Positions 30,844 to 58,573 of a DNA stretch of 64,000 nt are shown here, piece by piece. The DNA lies in NCBI RefSeq assembly GCF_019668485.1, contig NZ_AP024619.1:1239001-1303000 (forward strand), read 5' to 3'. The notes beneath the pieces were generated by a model. The model ran no database searches. It had not been told where the DNA came from and saw only the letters and a list, made by a program, of their open reading frames with translations. Origin of the DNA: Gelria sp. Kuro-4 (GTDB taxonomy: Bacteria; Bacillota; DTU030; DUMP01). Position 1 is the stretch's first letter. Each line of letters begins with the position of its first letter. Both the position numbers and the translations under genes were made by a program.

Positions 30844-32511
30844 ATGCTTTCCGACATCGAAATCGCCCAGGCGGCCCCGATGCAGCCCATCACGGAGGTG
30901 GCCGCCGCCCTCGGCCTGGCGCCTGAGGAACTGGAACTCTACGGCCGCTACAAGGCCAAGGTGAGCCCGGCGGTGTGGGAGCGGGTAAAGGAGCGGCCGG
31001 ACGGGAAGCTGATCCTGGTGACGGCCATCAACCCCACACCGGCCGGTGAAGGCAAGACGACAACCACCGTGGGCCTGGGACAGGCCCTGGCCCGGCGGGG
31101 GAAGAAAGTGGCCATCGCCCTGCGCGAACCCTCCCTGGGGCCGAGCTTCGGCGTGAAGGGCGGCGCCGCCGGCGGCGGGTACTCCCAGGTGGTGCCCATG
31201 GAGGACATCAACCTGCACTTCACCGGCGACATCCACGCCGTGACCACGGCCCACAACCTTCTTTCCGCCCTCATCGACAATCACCTGCAGCAGGGGAATG
31301 CCCTGGGGCTGGACCCGCGGCGCATCACCTGGAAGCGGGTCCTCGACATGAACGACCGGGCGCTCAGGCACATCGTCATCGGCCTGGGGGGTAGGGCCCA
31401 GGGCGTCCCGCGCGAAGACGGCTTCGACATCTCCGTGGCCTCCGAAGTGATGGCCATCCTCTGCCTTGCCGGCAGCCTCAGCGAGCTCAAGGAGCGCCTG
31501 GCGCGGATCGTGGTGGGCTACACCGAGGGCGGCCGCCCCGTGACGGCCGGCGACCTCAAGGCCCAGGGGGCGATGGCGCTTCTTCTTAAGGACGCCTTAA
31601 AGCCCAACCTGGTCCAGACCTTAGAGCACGTCCCGGCCTTCATCCACGGCGGTCCCTTCGCCAACATCGCCCACGGCTGCAACTCCATCCAGGCCACGCG
31701 GCTGGGGCTCAAGCTGGCCGACTACTTCGTCACAGAGGCCGGCTTCGGCGCCGACTTGGGGGCGGAGAAGTTCTTCGACATCAAGTGCCGCGTAGCCGGC
31801 CTTAAGCCCAGCGCCGCCGTGGTGGTGGCCACAGTGCGCGCCCTCAAGCTCCACGGCGGGGTACCCAAGGCCGAGCTGGGGCGGGAGAACCTGGACGCCC
31901 TCGAGGCGGGCTTCGCCAACCTGGAAAAGCAGGTGGAGAACGTGCGCCTCTTCGGCGTGCCGCCGGTGGTGGCCATCAACCGCTTTCCCACCGACAGCGA
32001 CAGAGAGCTTTCCCTGCTGGCGGAGCTCTGCAGGCGCCTCAATGTGCCCTTTGCCCTCTCGGAGGTCTGGGCCAAAGGCGGTGCCGGGGGGATCGAACTG
32101 GCCGAGAAGGTTCTTACCGCCTGTGAAGGGCCGGCCGACTTCCACTTTCTCTACGACCCCACGGAAGAGCCCAAGGCGAAGATCGCCGCCATCGCCCGGA
32201 AGGTTTACGGCGCCGCGCGGGTGGAGTACACCCCCGAGGCGGAGCGCGATCTCAAGGCCATCCACGACCAGGGCCTGGATAACCTCCTCATCTGCATGGC
32301 GAAAACCCAGTACTCCCTCTCGGACGACCCGGCCCTCCTAGGGCGTCCGGAAGGCTTTCCCCTTACCGTGCGCGAGGTGCGTCTTTCCGCCGGCGCCGGG
32401 TTTATCATCCCGGTTACGGGCCAGATCATGACCATGCCCGGTCTTCCTAAGCACCCGGCGGCGCTCGACATGGACATAGACGACACAGGGCGCATCACCG
32501 GCCTCTTTTAG
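30844..32511 (+). CDS. fhs: Formate-tetrahydrofolate ligase
   Basis: A 555-aa enzyme activating formate as 10-formyl-THF with ATP, central in acetogens and a source of formyl groups for PurN and PurH. The N-terminus [16 protein letters not shown] is that expected for Fhs. The P-loop [18 protein letters not shown] is near residue 65, and [20 protein letters not shown] and [20 protein letters not shown] are intact. The frame extends 111 nt further upstream, but those residues are unlike any Fhs; ATG 30844 is the natural start. The 30601-30843 gap shows no clear riboswitch. Confidence 0.97.
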
Positions 32512-32547
32512 GCCGGCCAAGAGATCTTTAAGGCAGGAGGGCGGGAA

Positions 32548-33414
32548 ATGAGGGCGGAGATTCTCGACGGCAGGAAGGTGGCGGCGCAGGTTAAGGCTGC
32601 GCTCAAAGAAGAGGTGACACAGCTGAAAGGCCGGGGCCTGACCCCCGGCCTGGCGGTGATCCTGGTGGGGGACGACCCGGCCTCCCAGGTGTACGTAGGG
32701 AACAAAGAGAAGGCCTGCCGGGCGGTGGGCATTGCCTCCTTTCCCCACCGGTTGCCGGCGGCTACCGGCGAGGAACACCTGCTGCAGCTCATCGGGCGCC
32801 TCAACGCCGACCCGGCCGTGCACGGGATCCTGGTCCAGCTGCCCCTGCCGCGCCAACTGGACGCGAACCGGGTGATCCAGGCCATCGACCCGGCCAAGGA
32901 CGTGGACGGCTTCCACCCCGTGAACGCCGGCCGGCTGGCGGCGGGTTTGCCGGCCTTTGTACCCTGCACGCCCCAGGGGGTTATGCACCTGCTCGCAGCC
33001 TATAACATCCCGGTTGCGGGGCGGCACGCCGTGGTGGTGGGGCGGAGCAACATCGTGGGCAAACCCCTGGTGCAGCTTCTCCTGGCCGCGGATGCCACCG
33101 TCACCGTCTGCCACAGCAAGACCAGGGACCTGGCCGCCTTCACCCGCACGGCCGATATCCTGGTGGCGGCGGTGGGTAGGCCGCGCCTTATCACCCGCGA
33201 CATGGTAAAACCCGGGGCGGTGGTGGTGGACGTGGGCATCAACCGGCTGCCGGAAGGGCTGGTGGGCGACGTGGATTTCGAGGCGGTGCGCGAGGTGGCG
33301 CGTTACATTACGCCCGTTCCGGGCGGCGTAGGCCCCCTGACCATCGCCATGCTGCTTAAGAACACGCTTGCGGCGGCCCTGGCCGGCCGAGGCGGCGGGC
33401 CGCGGGGCGAGTAG
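32548..33414 (+). CDS. folD: Methylene-THF dehydrogenase/methenyl-THF cyclohydrolase
   Basis: A 288-aa bifunctional enzyme interconverting methylene-, methenyl- and formyl-THF with NADP. The motifs [34 protein letters not shown] and [17 protein letters not shown] (nucleotide-binding Rossmann part) are present, ending [23 protein letters not shown] behind GCAGGAGGGCGGG. It lies 36 bp after fhs, so the two are probably one operon. Confidence 0.97.
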
Positions 33415-48998: not shown

Positions 48999-49682
48999 CT
49001 AGAGAAAGAGGTTGACCACACCTTCCGGCTCGAGGTACTTGAGCAGTTCAGCCGCTGCTTTTATGCGGTGTTCTTCCACCAGCTTGCCGGCTTCTTCTGC
49101 GTCGCGAGCCTTGAGGGCCGCGACAATGGCTTCGTGCTCACGCAGGGATTCCGCCGCCCGCGTAGGGGAAAGGAGGAAAACGGCCCGCAGGCGGTCGCGC
49201 CGCGCCCAGAGATCGTCGAGGATCTTAAGCAGGTGGTTGTTGCCGGCACAGGCGTGGATGGTGCGGTGAAACTCTTTATTTAAGACTCCGTACTCCGCCG
49301 GCCGATTGTTTGCCACATACAGCCGCATGGTTCCCAGCATGCTTTCCAGTTGTTCGAGTACCGCGGGCGTCAGGTGGCGGGTAGCTTCCCGCGTTGCCAG
49401 CCCCTCCAGCTCGCGCAGGATGGGGATGTCCTCCTTGAGGTCCGCGATCGAAATGCCGGAAACTACGGCACCCACGTTGAGGGTCCAGTTCACGTAGCCT
49501 TCCGTGTCCAAACGCTTTAGCGCCTCGCGCACGGGCTGCGTGCTGACGTGCAGCTTTTCGGCAATATCGGCCATGACCAGACGGACTCCCGGCTTGAGTT
49601 CGCCGCTGATGATGGCTTCCTTTATGGCGTGATAAACCCGTTCGCTCTTTGACCTGTACTGGTTTAGCGGCTGCTGAAGCAG
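48999..49682 (-). CDS. GntR/FCD family regulator, apparent CTG start
   Basis: About 227 aa. The winged helix (SERVYHAIKEAIISGELKPG, then EKLHVSTQPVREALKRLDTE) is followed by an FCD ligand domain with the metal-site pattern LNKEFHRTIHACAGN...EHEAIVAALKARD. The first ATG (49574) would cut off half of the DNA-binding domain. Upstream there is no in-frame ATG, GTG or TTG, but a CTG at 49682-49680 has GGGGAGG with 8-nt spacing. It is divergent from the dehydratase gene it probably controls. Confidence 0.88.
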   Translation of the reverse strand: MLQQPLNQYRSKSERVYHAIKEAIISGELKPGVRLVMADIAEKLHVSTQPVREALKRLDTEGYVNWTLNVGAVVSGISIADLKEDIPILRELEGLATREATRHLTPAVLEQLESMLGTMRLYVANNRPAEYGVLNKEFHRTIHACAGNNHLLKILDDLWARRDRLRAVFLLSPTRAAESLREHEAIVAALKARDAEEAGKLVEEHRIKAAAELLKYLEPEGVVNLFL

Positions 49683-49810
49683 TTGAGATTCCTCCCCTTC
49701 GCCGGTGCGAACACCAAAACCACTCTGCAGGTGTTTAGCTTACCTTCATTTTTCCACACAGCCCCGGCAATTCCTTCGCCCACCTTAACAAAAAGATGAC
49801 AGGAAGATAT

Positions 49811-49831
49811 TCTTGTCTAAACTGCACAAGA
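49811..49831 (+). promoter_or_regulatory. Candidate GntR operator between the divergent genes
   Basis: TCTTGT (49811-49816) and ACAAGA (49826-49831) form a dyad with 9-nt spacing. FadR-subfamily sites often have the TNGTNNNACNA form, so the fit is partial. No clear -35/-10 pair for the dehydratase gene was found. Confidence 0.4.
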
Positions 49832-49901
49832 GATCTGAGGAGGAAAAGCCTGAGTACCGTAGTATGTATCCAGTATGATAGATGGGAATGAGGTGCAGGC
49901 G

Positions 49902-51581
49902 ATGGAGAAGAAACCCTTTCGCAGCAGCATCATCGTAGACGGCATCGACCGAGCCGGCATGCGGGCCCACCTGAAGGCCATCGGCCTCCTCGACGATGAA
50001 CTTAGCCGTCCCTTTATCGGCGTGGTCAACTCCTGGAACGAGATGCATCCCGGGCACAAACACCTGCGCGAAGTGGCCCAGGCGGTCAAGGACGGGATCC
50101 GCCTGGCGGGCGGGGTGCCGTTTGAGTTTAATACGGTAAGTATCTGCGACGGCATTGCTCAAGGTCACATCGGCATGTGTTACGTGCTGCCCAGCCGGGA
50201 GGTGATTGTAGACTCTGTGGAAGTGGTGGCTGAGGCCCAGCAGCTCGATGGCCTGGTGCTCATCGCCTCCTGTGACAAGATCGTTCCGGCAATGCTCATG
50301 GCTGCAGGCCGGCTTAACCTGCCGGCAGTGGTGGTGACCGGGGGACCGATGCTTCCCGGGAAGTTCCAGGGCCGGGACCTGGCCATCTACGAAATCCGGG
50401 AGGCGGCCGGGCTGCTTAAGGCCGGTAAAATGACCCCGGAAGAGTTTAAGGAAATGGAAGAGAACATCTGCCCCTCGGCCGGCTCCTGCGCCATGATGGG
50501 CACGGCGAATACCATGTCCTGTGTGGCCGAGGCCTTAGGGCTTACCGTGCCGGGGTGCGCTACAACCCATGCGGTGTATTCCCGTAAACTCCGGCAAGCG
50601 AAAGAGAGCGGCATGCTCGCGGTAGAGCTGGTGAAGAAGGGGATCCGGCCGCGAGATATTGTGACGCGTTCTTCCTTCGCCAATGCCCTCACCGTAGCCA
50701 TGGCCTTGGGAGGCTCTACCAACACCCTGCTTCACATCCCGGCGGTGGCCCACGAATTCGGCTATACGGTGACGGCGGACGACTTCGAGGAGACCAGCCG
50801 GCGCACGCCGCATCTGGTGAACGTGAAGCCTTCGGGCAAGTACACCCTCTTCGACTTCGATCTGGCGGGCGGGGTTCCCGCGCTCATGAAGGAACTCGGC
50901 GAGAAGTACCTCGACTTGGACGCGCGGACGGTATCCGGCAAGACCTGGCGGGAGATTTTGCCCGGCTTCCGTAACCGTGACGAGCGGGTGATCACGCCGC
51001 TTTCGCAGCCCCTTCACGAACAGGGCAGCCTGGCCATCCTCAAGGGGAACCTGGCGCCGGAGGGGGCGGCAGTCAAACAATCGGCCGTCTCGCCCACCAT
51101 GCTCGTGCACACCGGTCCGGCCCGGGTATTCAATTCCCAGGAAGAGGCCGTCGCCGCCATGTTCGCCGGGAAGATAAACCGGGGCGACGTTATTGTCATC
51201 CGTTACGAGGGCCCCAAGGGCGGACCGGGCATGCGGGAGATGCTCGCTGCGACCTCGGTACTCATGGGGCTCGGGCTGGGCGACAGTACGGCCCTCGTTA
51301 CCGACGGCCGTTTTTCCGGGGCAACGCGAGGGCCGTGTATCGGCCACGTGGCACCGGAGGCGGCGCTGGGCGGAACCATCGGCCTGGTTGAGGAGGGAGA
51401 CCTCATCACTATTGACATACCGGCCCGCACCCTCACGCTGCATGCGAGCGAGGAAGAGCTTGCGCGGCGGCGTGAGAGGTGGGTCCCCCTTCCGCCCAAG
51501 GTACAGAGCAGATACCTGCGCCGCTACAGCCAGCTGGTGGACAGCGTTTGGCGCGGCGCCGTGCTCAAGGAAAAGGCCTGA
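49902..51581 (+). CDS. ilvD: IlvD/Edd family dehydratase (dihydroxy-acid dehydratase type)
   Basis: A 559-aa Fe-S dehydratase. Cluster and substrate motifs: CDKIVPAMLMAAGRLNLP, CPSAGSCAMMGTANTMSCVA, GLTVPGCATTHAV and GRFSGATRGPCIGHVAPEA. ATG 49902 has GAGGTG at good spacing and gives the usual length; an in-frame ATG at 49875 lacks a site. IlvD acts in valine/isoleucine synthesis, but homologues dehydrate sugar acids. The neighbouring GntR/FCD regulator and SSS carrier, and the lack of other ilv genes, favour a catabolic substrate. Confidence 0.85.
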   Translation: MEKKPFRSSIIVDGIDRAGMRAHLKAIGLLDDELSRPFIGVVNSWNEMHPGHKHLREVAQAVKDGIRLAGGVPFEFNTVSICDGIAQGHIGMCYVLPSREVIVDSVEVVAEAQQLDGLVLIASCDKIVPAMLMAAGRLNLPAVVVTGGPMLPGKFQGRDLAIYEIREAAGLLKAGKMTPEEFKEMEENICPSAGSCAMMGTANTMSCVAEALGLTVPGCATTHAVYSRKLRQAKESGMLAVELVKKGIRPRDIVTRSSFANALTVAMALGGSTNTLLHIPAVAHEFGYTVTADDFEETSRRTPHLVNVKPSGKYTLFDFDLAGGVPALMKELGEKYLDLDARTVSGKTWREILPGFRNRDERVITPLSQPLHEQGSLAILKGNLAPEGAAVKQSAVSPTMLVHTGPARVFNSQEEAVAAMFAGKINRGDVIVIRYEGPKGGPGMREMLAATSVLMGLGLGDSTALVTDGRFSGATRGPCIGHVAPEAALGGTIGLVEEGDLITIDIPARTLTLHASEEELARRRERWVPLPPKVQSRYLRRYSQLVDSVWRGAVLKEKA

Positions 51582-51596
51582 GGCGAGGGAACGCAG

Positions 51597-51812
51597 ATGG
51601 GGGAGAGCGAGGAATGGAGGTACCGAATGTGCCGGACGGCGCCCGTAGCCGGTCAGCTCTGCGCCGGCTGCGAACGCTTTTATTCCAGATTTCCTCGGAC
51701 CGAGCGAAGGGTGCCGGCAGGTGAGCGGCCTGACCACGGCTCACATGGTGAGCATAATAGCAACCCTCAGCCTGGTTACTGCGGTCGGGGTGTATTCCGG
51801 TCGCAGGATTAA
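51597..51812 (+). CDS. Possible small Cys-containing protein
   Basis: A 71-codon frame whose first 40 codons fill the gap between the dehydratase and symporter genes; the rest overlaps the symporter start. ATG is preceded by AGGGA with 6-nt spacing. The segment MCRTAPVAGQLCAGCERFY has three cysteines that could bind metal. Not recognised; may be translated or may only be spacer. Confidence 0.3.
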   Translation: MGESEEWRYRMCRTAPVAGQLCAGCERFYSRFPRTERRVPAGERPDHGSHGEHNSNPQPGYCGRGVFRSQD

Positions 51813-53133
51813 ATCGGCCGCGGACTTTTCTCTCGGCGGCCGCCGCGCCGGCTCCGTGCTGGTGGCCGCCACCATCATGGGGACGCTGGTGGGCGGCGCT
51901 TCCACCATTGGCACGGCGCAGCTGGCCTTCCGCTACGGCCTTTCGGCCTGGTGGTTCACCCTGGGCGGCGGTATCGCCTGCCTGATTCTGGGTCTGGCCT
52001 TGGCCGGGCCGCTGCGCGCGACGGAAAACGAAACCATGCCGGAACTCTTGGGCAAAGCGTACGGCGGTTACGCCTCGGTGACGGCCAGCCTGTTTTCTTC
52101 GGTGGGCACTTTTCTCAACCTCGTGGCCCAGGTGCTGGCGGCGGTGGCACTACTCACCTCAATGCTGGCGCTGCCCGCCTGGGCGGCCGCCCTGGCCGCG
52201 GCGGGGCTTATGGTGGCATACGTGGCGTTCGGCGGCGTTTGGGGTACGGGGCTCGTCGGCCTGGCCAAACTTGCGCTGCTCTACGGGATACTCCTGATTA
52301 CCGGCGCGCTGGCCTACACCGGGTTAGGGGGTTGGGAGGGGCTGCGGGCCACTTTCCCCGCCCATCCCTGGTTCAGCCTGCTGGGGCGCGGCGCAGCCGC
52401 AGACCTCGCGGCCGGTTTTTCCTTGCTTGTCGGCGTGCTTTCCACCCAAACATACATTCAGGCCATGTTCTCCGCCCGGAGCATTGGGGCGGCCCGGAGC
52501 GGCGCACTGCTCGCGGCCTTCTTAATTCCTCCGGCCGGGGTTCCCGGCATCCTTATCGGGCTTTTCATGCGCAAGAATTTTCCTGATTTGGACCCGGCTC
52601 AGGCCTTCCCGGCCTTTGTGCTGCGCTTTCTCCCGGCGCCGCTCGCCGGCGTAGCCCTGGCTACTCTGCTCGTCGCCGTGGTAGGGACGGGGGCGGGGCT
52701 GGCCCTCGGCATCAGCACCATGGTCACCAAGGATATCTACCGGCGTTACTTTCCAGGTGCCGCGGGAGCGGACCGGAGCCTCCTCGTCTCCCGCCTGGTG
52801 ATCGTTGCGGTCACGGGCCTGAGCCTGGTGGTGGTGCTGAGCGGCAACCTCAAGAGTCTCATCCTGGAATGGACGTATCTTTCCATGGGGCTGAGGGGGG
52901 CGACGGTATGCCTGCCTCTTCTCGCCGCGTTGTTTTGGCCCGGCCGTATAGCGCGGCCGGCAGGGCGGCTGGCCGTCATCTTGGGCCCCTTGACGGCCAT
53001 CCTCTGGAAGGTGGGCGGCGCGGCGGCCGATCCGCTCTATCCCGGCCTCCTGGTGAGCTTCCTCACCCTGGCGTTGGGTGCTTTCCGAACAAGTCCCGGC
53101 GCGGCGGGCGAGGTGAGACGGCACCGGACCTAG
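51721..53133 (+). CDS. Sodium:solute symporter (SSS family)
   Basis: A 470-aa carrier with about 13 helices. N-terminal VGVYSGRRIKSAADFSLGGR, then TIMGTLVGGASTIGTAQLAF, are typical SSS blocks. The sequence differs clearly from the PanF-like carrier at 25.5 kb. Starts at GTG 51721. With the dehydratase and GntR regulator it probably forms an uptake and dehydration pathway for a hydroxy acid; substrate unknown. Confidence 0.85.
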   Translation: MSGLTTAHMVSIIATLSLVTAVGVYSGRRIKSAADFSLGGRRAGSVLVAATIMGTLVGGASTIGTAQLAFRYGLSAWWFTLGGGIACLILGLALAGPLRATENETMPELLGKAYGGYASVTASLFSSVGTFLNLVAQVLAAVALLTSMLALPAWAAALAAAGLMVAYVAFGGVWGTGLVGLAKLALLYGILLITGALAYTGLGGWEGLRATFPAHPWFSLLGRGAAADLAAGFSLLVGVLSTQTYIQAMFSARSIGAARSGALLAAFLIPPAGVPGILIGLFMRKNFPDLDPAQAFPAFVLRFLPAPLAGVALATLLVAVVGTGAGLALGISTMVTKDIYRRYFPGAAGADRSLLVSRLVIVAVTGLSLVVVLSGNLKSLILEWTYLSMGLRGATVCLPLLAALFWPGRIARPAGRLAVILGPLTAILWKVGGAAADPLYPGLLVSFLTLALGAFRTSPGAAGEVRRHRT

Positions 53134-53289: not shown

Positions 53290-54159
53290 CTAACGTCCGC
53301 CCTTCCTCGTCCGGCCGAGGTAAAAACGGTGCGGGTCGACTTCGAGGCGGAGCACCCTGAGCTCTTCTTCGCTCGGCGGGCGGAAGGGCCGGGCGTGGGA
53401 GACGTCCAAGTCCCACCCCGTGTTTTCCCGCACCTCTTCCGGGGTGACTCCGGGGAAGACCTCGTCGAGAACGAGGATGCCGGTGACCGGGTCCGGCTTG
53501 AGCGTGCAGAGGTCGGTTATAACCTTAAGCTCCCCGCCCCGAAAGAGGCCGTAATCAAAACGGCTTTCGCCCGCCGGGCCGCGGCGGCCGGCGACGGTGG
53601 TGACGTAGCTCACGCGCGGGGGAAAACGCCGCTTTTCGTGGACCATCATCACGACGACCTTATCGGCCAAAGCGGCGATGGAATTGGCCCCGCCGCTGCC
53701 GGTGAGGCGAACGTCCGGCCCCCTGCCGGTCGGCGAGATGCCGGCCGGAAAGGGGCTGCCGATGGCCGTAGAGTTCAGGTTGCCGTACATATCGCACTCG
53801 GCCGCGCCCAGGACACCCAATGTACAGTAGCCGCGGGCGGCGATGGTACCAAAGGCGTCGGCCAGGGTGCCCAGGGTTGCGGCGCCAAAGGCCGCGCGCG
53901 GATCGGCCACCGAAATGGGGAGGTCGGCGATCTCCGGGTCGAACGTTCCTGCCTCGAGGATAATGGTAAGCGAAGGGGCCGTAGTCTTCTTGGCCAGCGT
54001 GGCCGCCAGAAGAGGAAGCCCCGTCCCGACGAAGGCAAAGGCTCCGTCCGTAAGTTCGCGGGCCACCGCGCAGGCGAGAAGCTCCATCGGCGTAAACTCG
54101 GAGGCCGTGAGGCCGTGCTGGGCGAGGTAGGCTTCGTACTTCGCATCGAGCGCGCACAT
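53290..54159 (-). CDS. CoA-transferase beta subunit (GctB-like)
   Basis: A 289-aa family I CoA-transferase subunit. FTPMELLACAVARELTDGAF and VGTGLPLLAATLAKKT lead to ILEAGTFDPEI, where the family's catalytic Glu would lie (Glu in LEAG). GGANSIAALADKVVVMM and a C-terminal DPHRFYLGR follow. It resembles glutaconate CoA-transferase subunit B and the related steroid-degradation IpdB proteins. It follows the alpha-subunit gene by about 14 bp. Substrate unknown. Confidence 0.83.
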   Translation of the reverse strand: MCALDAKYEAYLAQHGLTASEFTPMELLACAVARELTDGAFAFVGTGLPLLAATLAKKTTAPSLTIILEAGTFDPEIADLPISVADPRAAFGAATLGTLADAFGTIAARGYCTLGVLGAAECDMYGNLNSTAIGSPFPAGISPTGRGPDVRLTGSGGANSIAALADKVVVMMVHEKRRFPPRVSYVTTVAGRRGPAGESRFDYGLFRGGELKVITDLCTLKPDPVTGILVLDEVFPGVTPEEVRENTGWDLDVSHARPFRPPSEEELRVLRLEVDPHRFYLGRTRKGGR

Positions 54160-56048: not shown

Positions 56049-56338
56049 TATATGTGATGGTAGGCAAAGAGTACGATACAGCCTGAGGAAAGTAAACTTT
56101 GTGCAATATAAACAAAAGAAGGGCAGAGTTTTATGTGGGGACCGCCCAATACTGTCTCTCAGGAAGCGCCGTGCCGGGAGGTCTGTGGCCGACAGGTCGC
56201 GCCGCGGCTCATATGCGGGCTGCAGCGCCACCTGGTACTATTTCCCCAGTTCAGACCTTAGGGGATTTGTGCATATTGGCCAAAGGTATTGGATTGTGAA
56301 GCACGAACCTTGACAACAAAGTGGCGGCATAAACCGAC

Positions 56339-56405: not shown

Positions 56406-56606
56406 GTGCGCTATCAAGTCAAGGTTAACAAAGCATGGTGCAAGGCCTGCGGGATTTGCGTGGAGTTTTGCCCCAAGGGAGTCTTGGCTTTGGGACAGGA
56501 CGGCAAAGTAGACGTGGTTAACCAGACCGAGTGTACAGGTTGCGGACTTTGCGAACTGAGGTGTCCGGACTTTGCGCTTGAGGTGGGAGGAGTAGAAAAT
56601 GAGTGA
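56406..56606 (+). CDS. korD: 2-Oxoacid:ferredoxin oxidoreductase delta subunit (2x[4Fe-4S] ferredoxin)
   Basis: A 66-aa bacterial ferredoxin with two complete clusters, CKACGICVEFCPKG and CTGCGLCELRCPD. As the first gene of korDABC it is the electron-carrying delta subunit of a KorABCD/VorABCD-type enzyme. GTG 56406 follows GGAGGTGA; upstream frames contain no ferredoxin-like sequence. It overlaps korA by 8 nt. Confidence 0.92.
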   Translation: MRYQVKVNKAWCKACGICVEFCPKGVLALGQDGKVDVVNQTECTGCGLCELRCPDFALEVGGVENE

Positions 56607-57744
56607 TAACGGTAGGGTGCGGCTGATGCAGGGCAACGAGGCCTGCGCCGAGGCGGCCCTGGCGGCCGGCTGCCGTTTCTTCGCCGGCTACCCCATCACG
56701 CCGGCGACGGAGATCGCCGAGATCCTGGCGGCCCGGCTGCCCCAGGTGGGCGGCACCTTTATCCAGATGGAGGATGAACTCGGCAGCATGGCGGCGGTGA
56801 TCGGAGCTTCCATCGGCGGCAAGAAGGCGCTTACGGCCACCAGCGGCCCCGGCTTTACGCTGAAACAGGAGAACATCGGCTACGCAGCCATGACGCAGAT
56901 CCCTTGTGTCATCGTGGATGTCCAGCGCGGGGGACCGAGCACGGGCCTGCCCACGCTGCCGGCTCAAGGGGATGTCATGCAGGCACGCTGGGGCACCCAC
57001 GGCGACCACCCCATCATCGTGCTGGCGCCGTCCACCGTCCGCGAGACGTACGATCTCACCGTCACCGCCTTTAACTTCGCAGAGAAGTTCCGCACGCCGG
57101 TGATTCTCCTGTCCGATGCGGTCGTCGGTCACCTCAGGGAGAAGGTGGTCCTGCCCGACCCAAGCGAGATCGCCCTGGTGGAGCGCAAGGCGCCGACGGT
57201 CCCGCCCGGCGAGTACACCCCCTTCCGGCCGGATGCTGACGGCATACCACCCTTTGTGCCGGTGGGGCGGGGCTACCGCTACCACATGACCAGCAACGTC
57301 TACGACGAAGGCGGCTTCCCCGCGACCAACAACCACGCCGTCGCCCGGCAGCTGATGGAACGCCTGCACCAGAAGATCGATCAGCATCTGGATGAGATCG
57401 TCCTGACCGACGAAATCGCCACTCAAGACGCAGAGGTTCTCGTCTTCGCCTACGGCGCGAGCGCCCGTTCCGGCAAAGCCGCGGTCAAGCTGGCGCGCGG
57501 ACAGGGCATCAAGGCCGGTCTTCTCAAGGCGAAGACCCTCTGGCCGTTCCCGGCGGCGCAAGTGAAGCGCCTGGGCGAGCGCGTGAAGGCCATCATCGTG
57601 CCCGAGATGAACACGGGACAGCTTGTGGGCGAGGTGGAGCGGGCCGTGCGCCGGCTGCCGGTGGAGGTACTGCCGCTTAACCGCTACGACGGCCTGATGA
57701 TCAGCCCCGAGCAGATCCTAGCCAAGATCAAAGAGGTGATGTGA
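56599..57744 (+). CDS. korA: 2-Oxoacid:ferredoxin oxidoreductase alpha subunit
   Basis: A 381-aa subunit with the pyrimidine-binding domain motif GYPITPATEIAE, EDELGSMAAVIGASIGG and ATSGPGFTLKQENIGYA, then GGPSTGLPTLPAQGD. It forms the active site with KorB and TPP, converting a 2-oxoacid plus CoA to acyl-CoA, CO2 and reduced ferredoxin. 2-Oxoglutarate is the likely substrate because sucCD follow, but branched-chain 2-oxoacids cannot be excluded. Confidence 0.93.
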   Translation: MSDNGRVRLMQGNEACAEAALAAGCRFFAGYPITPATEIAEILAARLPQVGGTFIQMEDELGSMAAVIGASIGGKKALTATSGPGFTLKQENIGYAAMTQIPCVIVDVQRGGPSTGLPTLPAQGDVMQARWGTHGDHPIIVLAPSTVRETYDLTVTAFNFAEKFRTPVILLSDAVVGHLREKVVLPDPSEIALVERKAPTVPPGEYTPFRPDADGIPPFVPVGRGYRYHMTSNVYDEGGFPATNNHAVARQLMERLHQKIDQHLDEIVLTDEIATQDAEVLVFAYGASARSGKAAVKLARGQGIKAGLLKAKTLWPFPAAQVKRLGERVKAIIVPEMNTGQLVGEVERAVRRLPVEVLPLNRYDGLMISPEQILAKIKEVM

Positions 57745-57745
57745 T

Positions 57746-58573
57746 TTGGCCAGCGCGACGTTCAAGTACCTGCGCCCAAACAGGCTCCCCCACATCTGGT
57801 GTCCGGGCTGCGGCGACGGTATCATCGTCGGCGCTCTTGTCCGCGCCATCGACAAACTGGGCTGGAGCAAAGACGAAACCGTCGTCGTCACCGGCATCGG
57901 CTGTTCTGCTCGTTCGAACGCCATCATAGACTTTAATACCTTCCAGACAACCCACGGGCGCGCCTTGGGCTTCGCCACGGGGCTCAAGCTTGCCCGCCCC
58001 GAACTTAAGGTGGTCGTGGTCACCGGCGACGGCGACGGCGCCGGCATCGGCGGGAACCATCTCATCCACACGGCCCGGCGCAACGTCGATCTCACCACCA
58101 TCCTGGTCAACAACAGCATCTACGGCATGACCGGCGGCCAGTACTCACCGCTTACGCCCACGGGGAGCTTCGCCACCACCGCGCCGTACGGCATGGTGGA
58201 GCCCGCCTTCGATGTCTGCAGGCTCGTCGAGGGAGCAGGGGCTTCCTTCGTGGCCCGCGGCACCGTCTACCACGTCCGCCAGTTGGAGGAGCTCATCGGC
58301 GCGGCTCTCACCCACAAAGGCTTTTCCTTCGTCGAGGTTGTGGCCCAGTGCCCGACCGGCTTCGGCCGCCGCAACAGGATGAAGAGTCCCGCCGAAATGA
58401 TGAAATGGCAGCGCGATCACGCCGTGACCGTAGAGGCGGCCGAGAAACTGCCCCCCGAGAAGCTCGCAGGCAAGTTCCTCACGGGCGTGCTGCATCACGA
58501 AGACCGGCCCGAGTACACCGAGATGTACCGGCAGGTAATCGCTCAGGCCGGTCAGGAAGGGGGGCGGGAGTAA
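57746..58573 (+). CDS. korB: 2-Oxoacid:ferredoxin oxidoreductase beta subunit
   Basis: A 275-aa TPP-binding subunit. WCPGCGDGIIVGAL is the N-terminal hallmark; the TPP/Mg motif is GDGDGAGIGGNHLIHTARRN then ILVNN. YGMTGGQYSPLTPTG and CPTGFGRRN are also typical. TTG start (57746) directly after korA, with AGAGGTGAT upstream. Confidence 0.94.
   Translation: MASATFKYLRPNRLPHIWCPGCGDGIIVGALVRAIDKLGWSKDETVVVTGIGCSARSNAIIDFNTFQTTHGRALGFATGLKLARPELKVVVVTGDGDGAGIGGNHLIHTARRNVDLTTILVNNSIYGMTGGQYSPLTPTGSFATTAPYGMVEPAFDVCRLVEGAGASFVARGTVYHVRQLEELIGAALTHKGFSFVEVVAQCPTGFGRRNRMKSPAEMMKWQRDHAVTVEAAEKLPPEKLAGKFLTGVLHHEDRPEYTEMYRQVIAQAGQEGGRE

Follow-up and report, generated by a model that had tools for sequence, protein, structure and literature searches.

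A GntR/FCD regulator gene in Gelria sp. Kuro-4 with a probable CTG start codon

The regulator gene, its domains and its neighbours

We analysed a 64,000-nucleotide stretch of the Gelria sp. Kuro-4 genome (contig NZ_AP024619.1, positions 1,239,001 to 1,303,000), here called the window; positions without a prefix refer to it. Its minus strand carries a gene for a GntR/FCD regulator, whose proposed full length (48999..49682; 227 codons and a stop) is supported by the reading frame, by Pfam matches to GntR and FCD, and by orthologues that are 70–76% identical. The frame ends at 48999 and is open back to 49739, with a stop codon immediately upstream. Its codon list contains no ATG, GTG or TTG from 49739 down to the ATG at 49572..49574 (minus strand), an internal Met of the proposed protein. 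This ATG is where a conventional gene caller starts, and the conventional open reading frame is accordingly listed as 48999–49574.

The proposed start codon is the CTG at 49680..49682 (minus strand). Ahead of the first canonical start it is the sole in-frame non-canonical candidate led by a Shine–Dalgarno sequence: GGGGAGG (49691..49697, minus strand) stands 8 nt (aatctcaa) before it. This spacing is at the mode of the genome, where the 132 tallied starts led by AGGAGG or GGAGG are most often spaced by 7 nt (47) or 8 nt (43). Within 463 kb of this genome GGAGG lies 5–10 nt before 221 of 18,815 CTG triplets, and GGGGAGG lies at exactly 8 nt before three of them, the regulator CTG included. The initial annotation had claimed both the missing canonical codons upstream of the CTG and the GGGGAGG at 8-nt spacing, and we find both in the sequence. 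RNA folding over the start segment gave nothing unusual (z 0.33). A small out-of-frame open reading frame (49664–49759, minus strand), running from GTG 49759 or 49723 to a stop at 49664, overlaps the CTG start and could couple translation to the regulator; a DNA alignment gave no sign of its conservation, the congeners being gapped over part of it.

The regulator belongs to the FCD subfamily of the GntR family, with both domains scoring above curated cut-offs. The GntR winged helix-turn-helix domain (PF00392; residues 13–74, 49461..49646, minus strand) scores 58.9 bits on the CTG-started protein (cut-off 27) and spans profile positions 2–64 of 64, whereas the protein started at ATG 49574 scores 30.2 bits and retains positions 29–64 only. 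The FCD ligand/oligomerisation domain (PF07729; residues 89–205, 49068..49418, minus strand) scores 93.5 bits against a cut-off of 24.3. Three structures of FCD-subfamily GntR proteins (PDB 7u5q, 7xp0 and 6z74) match the regulator from residue 12–17 through the FCD part, so that the first helix belongs to the shared fold. The match to TIGR03338 (PhnR) is far below the cut-off of that model. The domain question can be regarded as settled by these sequence matches to Pfam and PDB, and two earlier statements stand with it: that the complete DNA-binding domain is encoded only from 49682, and that the start favoured by gene callers at 49574 loses half of the helix-turn-helix.

Divergent from the regulator is a gene for an ilvD-type dihydroxy-acid dehydratase (49875..51581, plus strand; TIGR00110 over cut-off), which is also the divergent neighbour in both congeners (G001 and G002) and is probably the target of the regulator. 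It is followed by a gene for a sodium:solute symporter family protein (51721..53133, plus strand; PF00474), probably co-regulated, and by one for a CoA-transferase family subunit (53290..54159, minus strand; PF01144), both of which also follow ilvD in G001. The alpha (56599–57744) and beta (57746–58573) genes of a 2-oxoacid:acceptor oxidoreductase (56599..58573, plus strand; NCBIfam) lie further on. The ilvD-type and regulator genes are close together in four relatives. In G006 both point the same way; in G001, G002 and G005 they are divergent, and in G005 another gene separates them. The ilvD-type gene of the window is one of six full-length homologues in the own genome, and the strongest is at G000:1090233 rather than in the window, so the window copy may be catabolic. 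A broken ilvD-type copy with many stops is found at G000:C1:1651002-1651995.

A 17-bp candidate operator, TTGTGCAGTTTAGACAA, is located between the regulator and the ilvD-type gene (49813..49829, minus strand), where it overlaps promoter-like matches on the ilvD side. Counterparts precede the regulator gene in G001, G002 and G005, and G006 has a less similar one. A second candidate, TTGTGCAATATAAACAA (56099..56115, plus strand), lies between open reading frames upstream of the 2-oxoacid:acceptor oxidoreductase genes, a possible second target on the strength of this site; its position suggests a small regulon. At the corresponding place in G001 no counterpart of the 56099 site was found. TTGTGCAN6ACAA has two matches in the 2.88 Mb genome, both near the regulator cluster (none in the backwards control), and TTGT-N9-ACAA has three in the window and none in the other 399 kb sampled; because some of the sites recovered had served to build the motif, finding it there is by construction, and the new information lies solely in how rare it is elsewhere. 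In its relaxed form, TNGTGCANNNTNNACAA, it also occurs at one unrelated-looking place each in G001, G005 and G006.

Start sites in orthologues and in the genome sample

Orthologues were sought in eight genomes of the family, the own genome included, and close ones were found in four of the seven others (G001, G002, G005 and G006). In the protein alignment, with the CTG numbered as residue 1 and the preceding codon as 0, the starts are TTG at 0 in G001 and in G002, GTG at 0 in G006, and ATG or TTG at –3 or –1 in G005. Thus three of the relatives start one codon upstream of the CTG, and all four orthologue loci start within four codons of it. In a DNA alignment anchored on the Shine–Dalgarno sequence, the CTG stands opposite the TTG of both congeners, all three having GGAGG and 8 nt of spacing, and a 3-nt gap follows the start column, inside an unconserved tail. 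By either alignment, DNA or protein, the start site is the same. The N-terminal coding regions of G001 and G002 are identical, so there are at most three independent comparisons among these orthologues.

The pattern of substitution changes across the proposed start. Relative to G002, codons 10–36 differ 4, 2 and 13 times at first, second and third positions, which identifies them as protein-coding since the differences are mostly at third positions; in the 25 codons ahead of the start the differences number 18, 16 and 18, and the codons upstream of residue 1 seem to be non-coding. Within codons 10–36, the codons with nonsynonymous differences number 5, 7 and 9 in pairs that include the regulator and 7, 8 and 11 among the relatives, and with a count not above that of the relatives there is no sign of decay of the regulator.

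The CTG itself is conserved in none of the relatives found, and the exact start codon is beyond proof by alignment because residues 1–9 are not conserved. The initial annotation had placed the start at CTG and had proposed an alignment with orthologues as a check; the four orthologue starts do cluster in the CTG region. Initiation at or within about one codon of the CTG is well supported by the orthologue starts, the spacing and the codon-position conservation, with the CTG itself as the best inference.

The own locus is the exception among its homologues. The regulator protein matched 35 loci, its own included, and all the 34 others have a canonical start upstream of residue 14 while its own has none (32 of these others are distinct, L031 and L032 being duplicate records of L002 and L003). 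Canonical starts are also present in all ten paralogues examined, out of 12 other family members in the own genome. For 313 predicted genes (463 kb, 16% of the genome) we used codon usage to look for coding sequence that extends ahead of the first canonical start. The strict form of the scan returned the regulator alone (1 of 313 genes). The looser form returned 11, of which only two have a non-canonical codon led by a Shine–Dalgarno sequence: the regulator (CTG) and infC (IF3; L060:16358-16885, minus strand, in G000:C1:2060001-2080000), where an ATT start lies behind a Shine–Dalgarno sequence with no earlier canonical start. The recovery of infC, a textbook example of such a start, serves as a positive control: the scan is able to detect real non-canonical starts. 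Two of the other nine rows are the duplicated folD. Most of this folD-type gene is found twice in the genome, in a 935-bp stretch at 32432-33366 of the window and at L057:4715-5649 (99.0% identity), which appears to be a recent duplication or conversion; the second copy shares its sampled stretch (L057) with the broken ilvD-type copy. That CTG starts are common in this genome is ruled out by the scan for the 463-kb sample.

Alternative accounts of the start codon

The absence of a canonical start could also be due to an error at the base 49682, the true codon being TTG, GTG or ATG and the start an ordinary one. The congeners hold TTG in this exact column, so a single wrong base would suffice. 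Finished genomes typically carry errors at about 1e-5 per base. Rare as CTG starts are, their quoted frequency (0.024% of the starts in bacteria; PMC11497404) exceeds such a rate, and the genome is a single contig of 2,880,462 bases that is 100% complete; we regard a base error as unlikely. An indel that hides a normal start is ruled out, as the orthologues start here and no canonical codon is nearby: no frame holds an ATG, GTG or TTG between the Shine–Dalgarno sequence and codon 12, so an indel there could not unmask one. Alternatively, the start codon may have been lost by recent mutation, leaving a regulator that is hardly made or inactive and targets that are constitutive. By figures quoted in PMC11497404, none of the other three NTG starts is as weak as CTG, and decayed genes do exist in the genome, one being the broken ilvD-type copy (G000:1651002-1651995). 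But the remaining frame is intact and without a stop, the lineage of the regulator has no nonsynonymous excess, and the Shine–Dalgarno sequence and its spacing are retained; a very recent loss would look the same in all these respects, so they lower the likelihood of a lost start, which we also consider small, but do not remove it.

Translation from ATG 49574 would yield 191 residues and truncate the DNA-binding domain. This codon is the first canonical in-frame start and has a short GGAG-like sequence upstream, but conservation as protein extends over the codons before it, the starts of all four orthologues lie further upstream, and GntR profile positions 2–28 would be lost. Moreover, the Met is an internal residue that G001, G002 and G005 share; G006 has a CTG codon in its place. 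We consider a start at this ATG very improbable. Initiation near 49682 on some other codon, or reinitiation from the out-of-frame upstream reading frame, can claim the presence of that frame; however, only the CTG combines the NTG form with optimal spacing, and the gaps of the congeners over part of the upstream frame also tell against it, making this the least likely of the alternatives considered.

A putative weak start and its precedents

We therefore favour, as the probable reading, an intact FCD-subfamily GntR regulator that uses CTG as its start codon in this lineage. The codon is one T/C transition from the TTG used by the congeners at the same place. The strong Shine–Dalgarno sequence at optimal spacing would place fMet-tRNA on the CTG, with initiation at a reduced rate, giving a 227-residue product with a complete winged helix-turn-helix, probably at low level. 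This protein would most likely bind a TTGT-N9-ACAA-type operator in the stretch separating its own gene from the divergent ilvD-type gene, and might also occupy a second site ahead of the 2-oxoacid oxidoreductase operon. Repression of these catabolic genes would last until the FCD domain binds a small carboxylic acid; we infer the ligand and the direction of control from the FCD class.

It is plausible that the CTG keeps the repressor level low, given the weak output of CUG (0.86% of that of AUG; PMC11497404) and the precedents of ccpN and lacI. More speculatively, the regulator may have evolved toward ever weaker starts (from GTG or TTG to CTG) as a tuned setting, in which the optimal Shine–Dalgarno sequence compensates and a handful of repressor molecules per cell leave the ilvD/2-oxoacid pathway leaky and quickly induced; we hold this to be possible but doubtful. 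The CTG and the TTG of a relative, one transition apart, form a clean natural pair for relating start-codon strength to repressor level. Standard gene callers accept ATG, GTG and TTG only, so natural bacterial CTG starts are easily missed, and the alignment of orthologue starts can mend annotations that truncate DNA-binding domains.

In the literature available to our search, nothing was found that joins a CTG start codon with GntR, and a broader search led to work on Salmonella Rhs. The kind of case is nonetheless already known. A non-canonical start with a Shine–Dalgarno sequence is shared with infC (IF3; AUU or AUA start), whose copy in this genome uses ATT. The infC start codon takes part in IF3 feedback, whereas no feedback loop is suggested for the regulator CTG. 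One precedent is ccpN (Staphylococcus aureus and Bacillus subtilis), although its product is presumably a different repressor and not a GntR/FCD protein. Like the regulator, ccpN is described as a Bacillota metabolic repressor gene with a non-canonical start, a strong Shine–Dalgarno sequence and appropriate spacing (PMC13009471). The same article reports that S. aureus AUA and AUU starts with an extended Shine–Dalgarno sequence give about 10% of AUG output, the ccpN AUA about 10% in poor medium and as much as 30% when the medium is rich (PMC13009471). The two cases differ in that the ccpN codon is AUA rather than CTG, that its non-canonical start is kept across genera, and that it was demonstrated by ribosome profiling and reporters (PMC13009471), whereas the regulator CTG is proposed from sequence. 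The lacI gene of Escherichia coli is likewise a repressor gene with a weak start codon: its GTG start lowers LacI and speeds lactose use, less repressor giving higher basal expression of the target (PMC11445065). Its GTG, in contrast to CTG, is an ordinary bacterial start, and its effect was proven by mutants and by competition in mice (PMC11445065).
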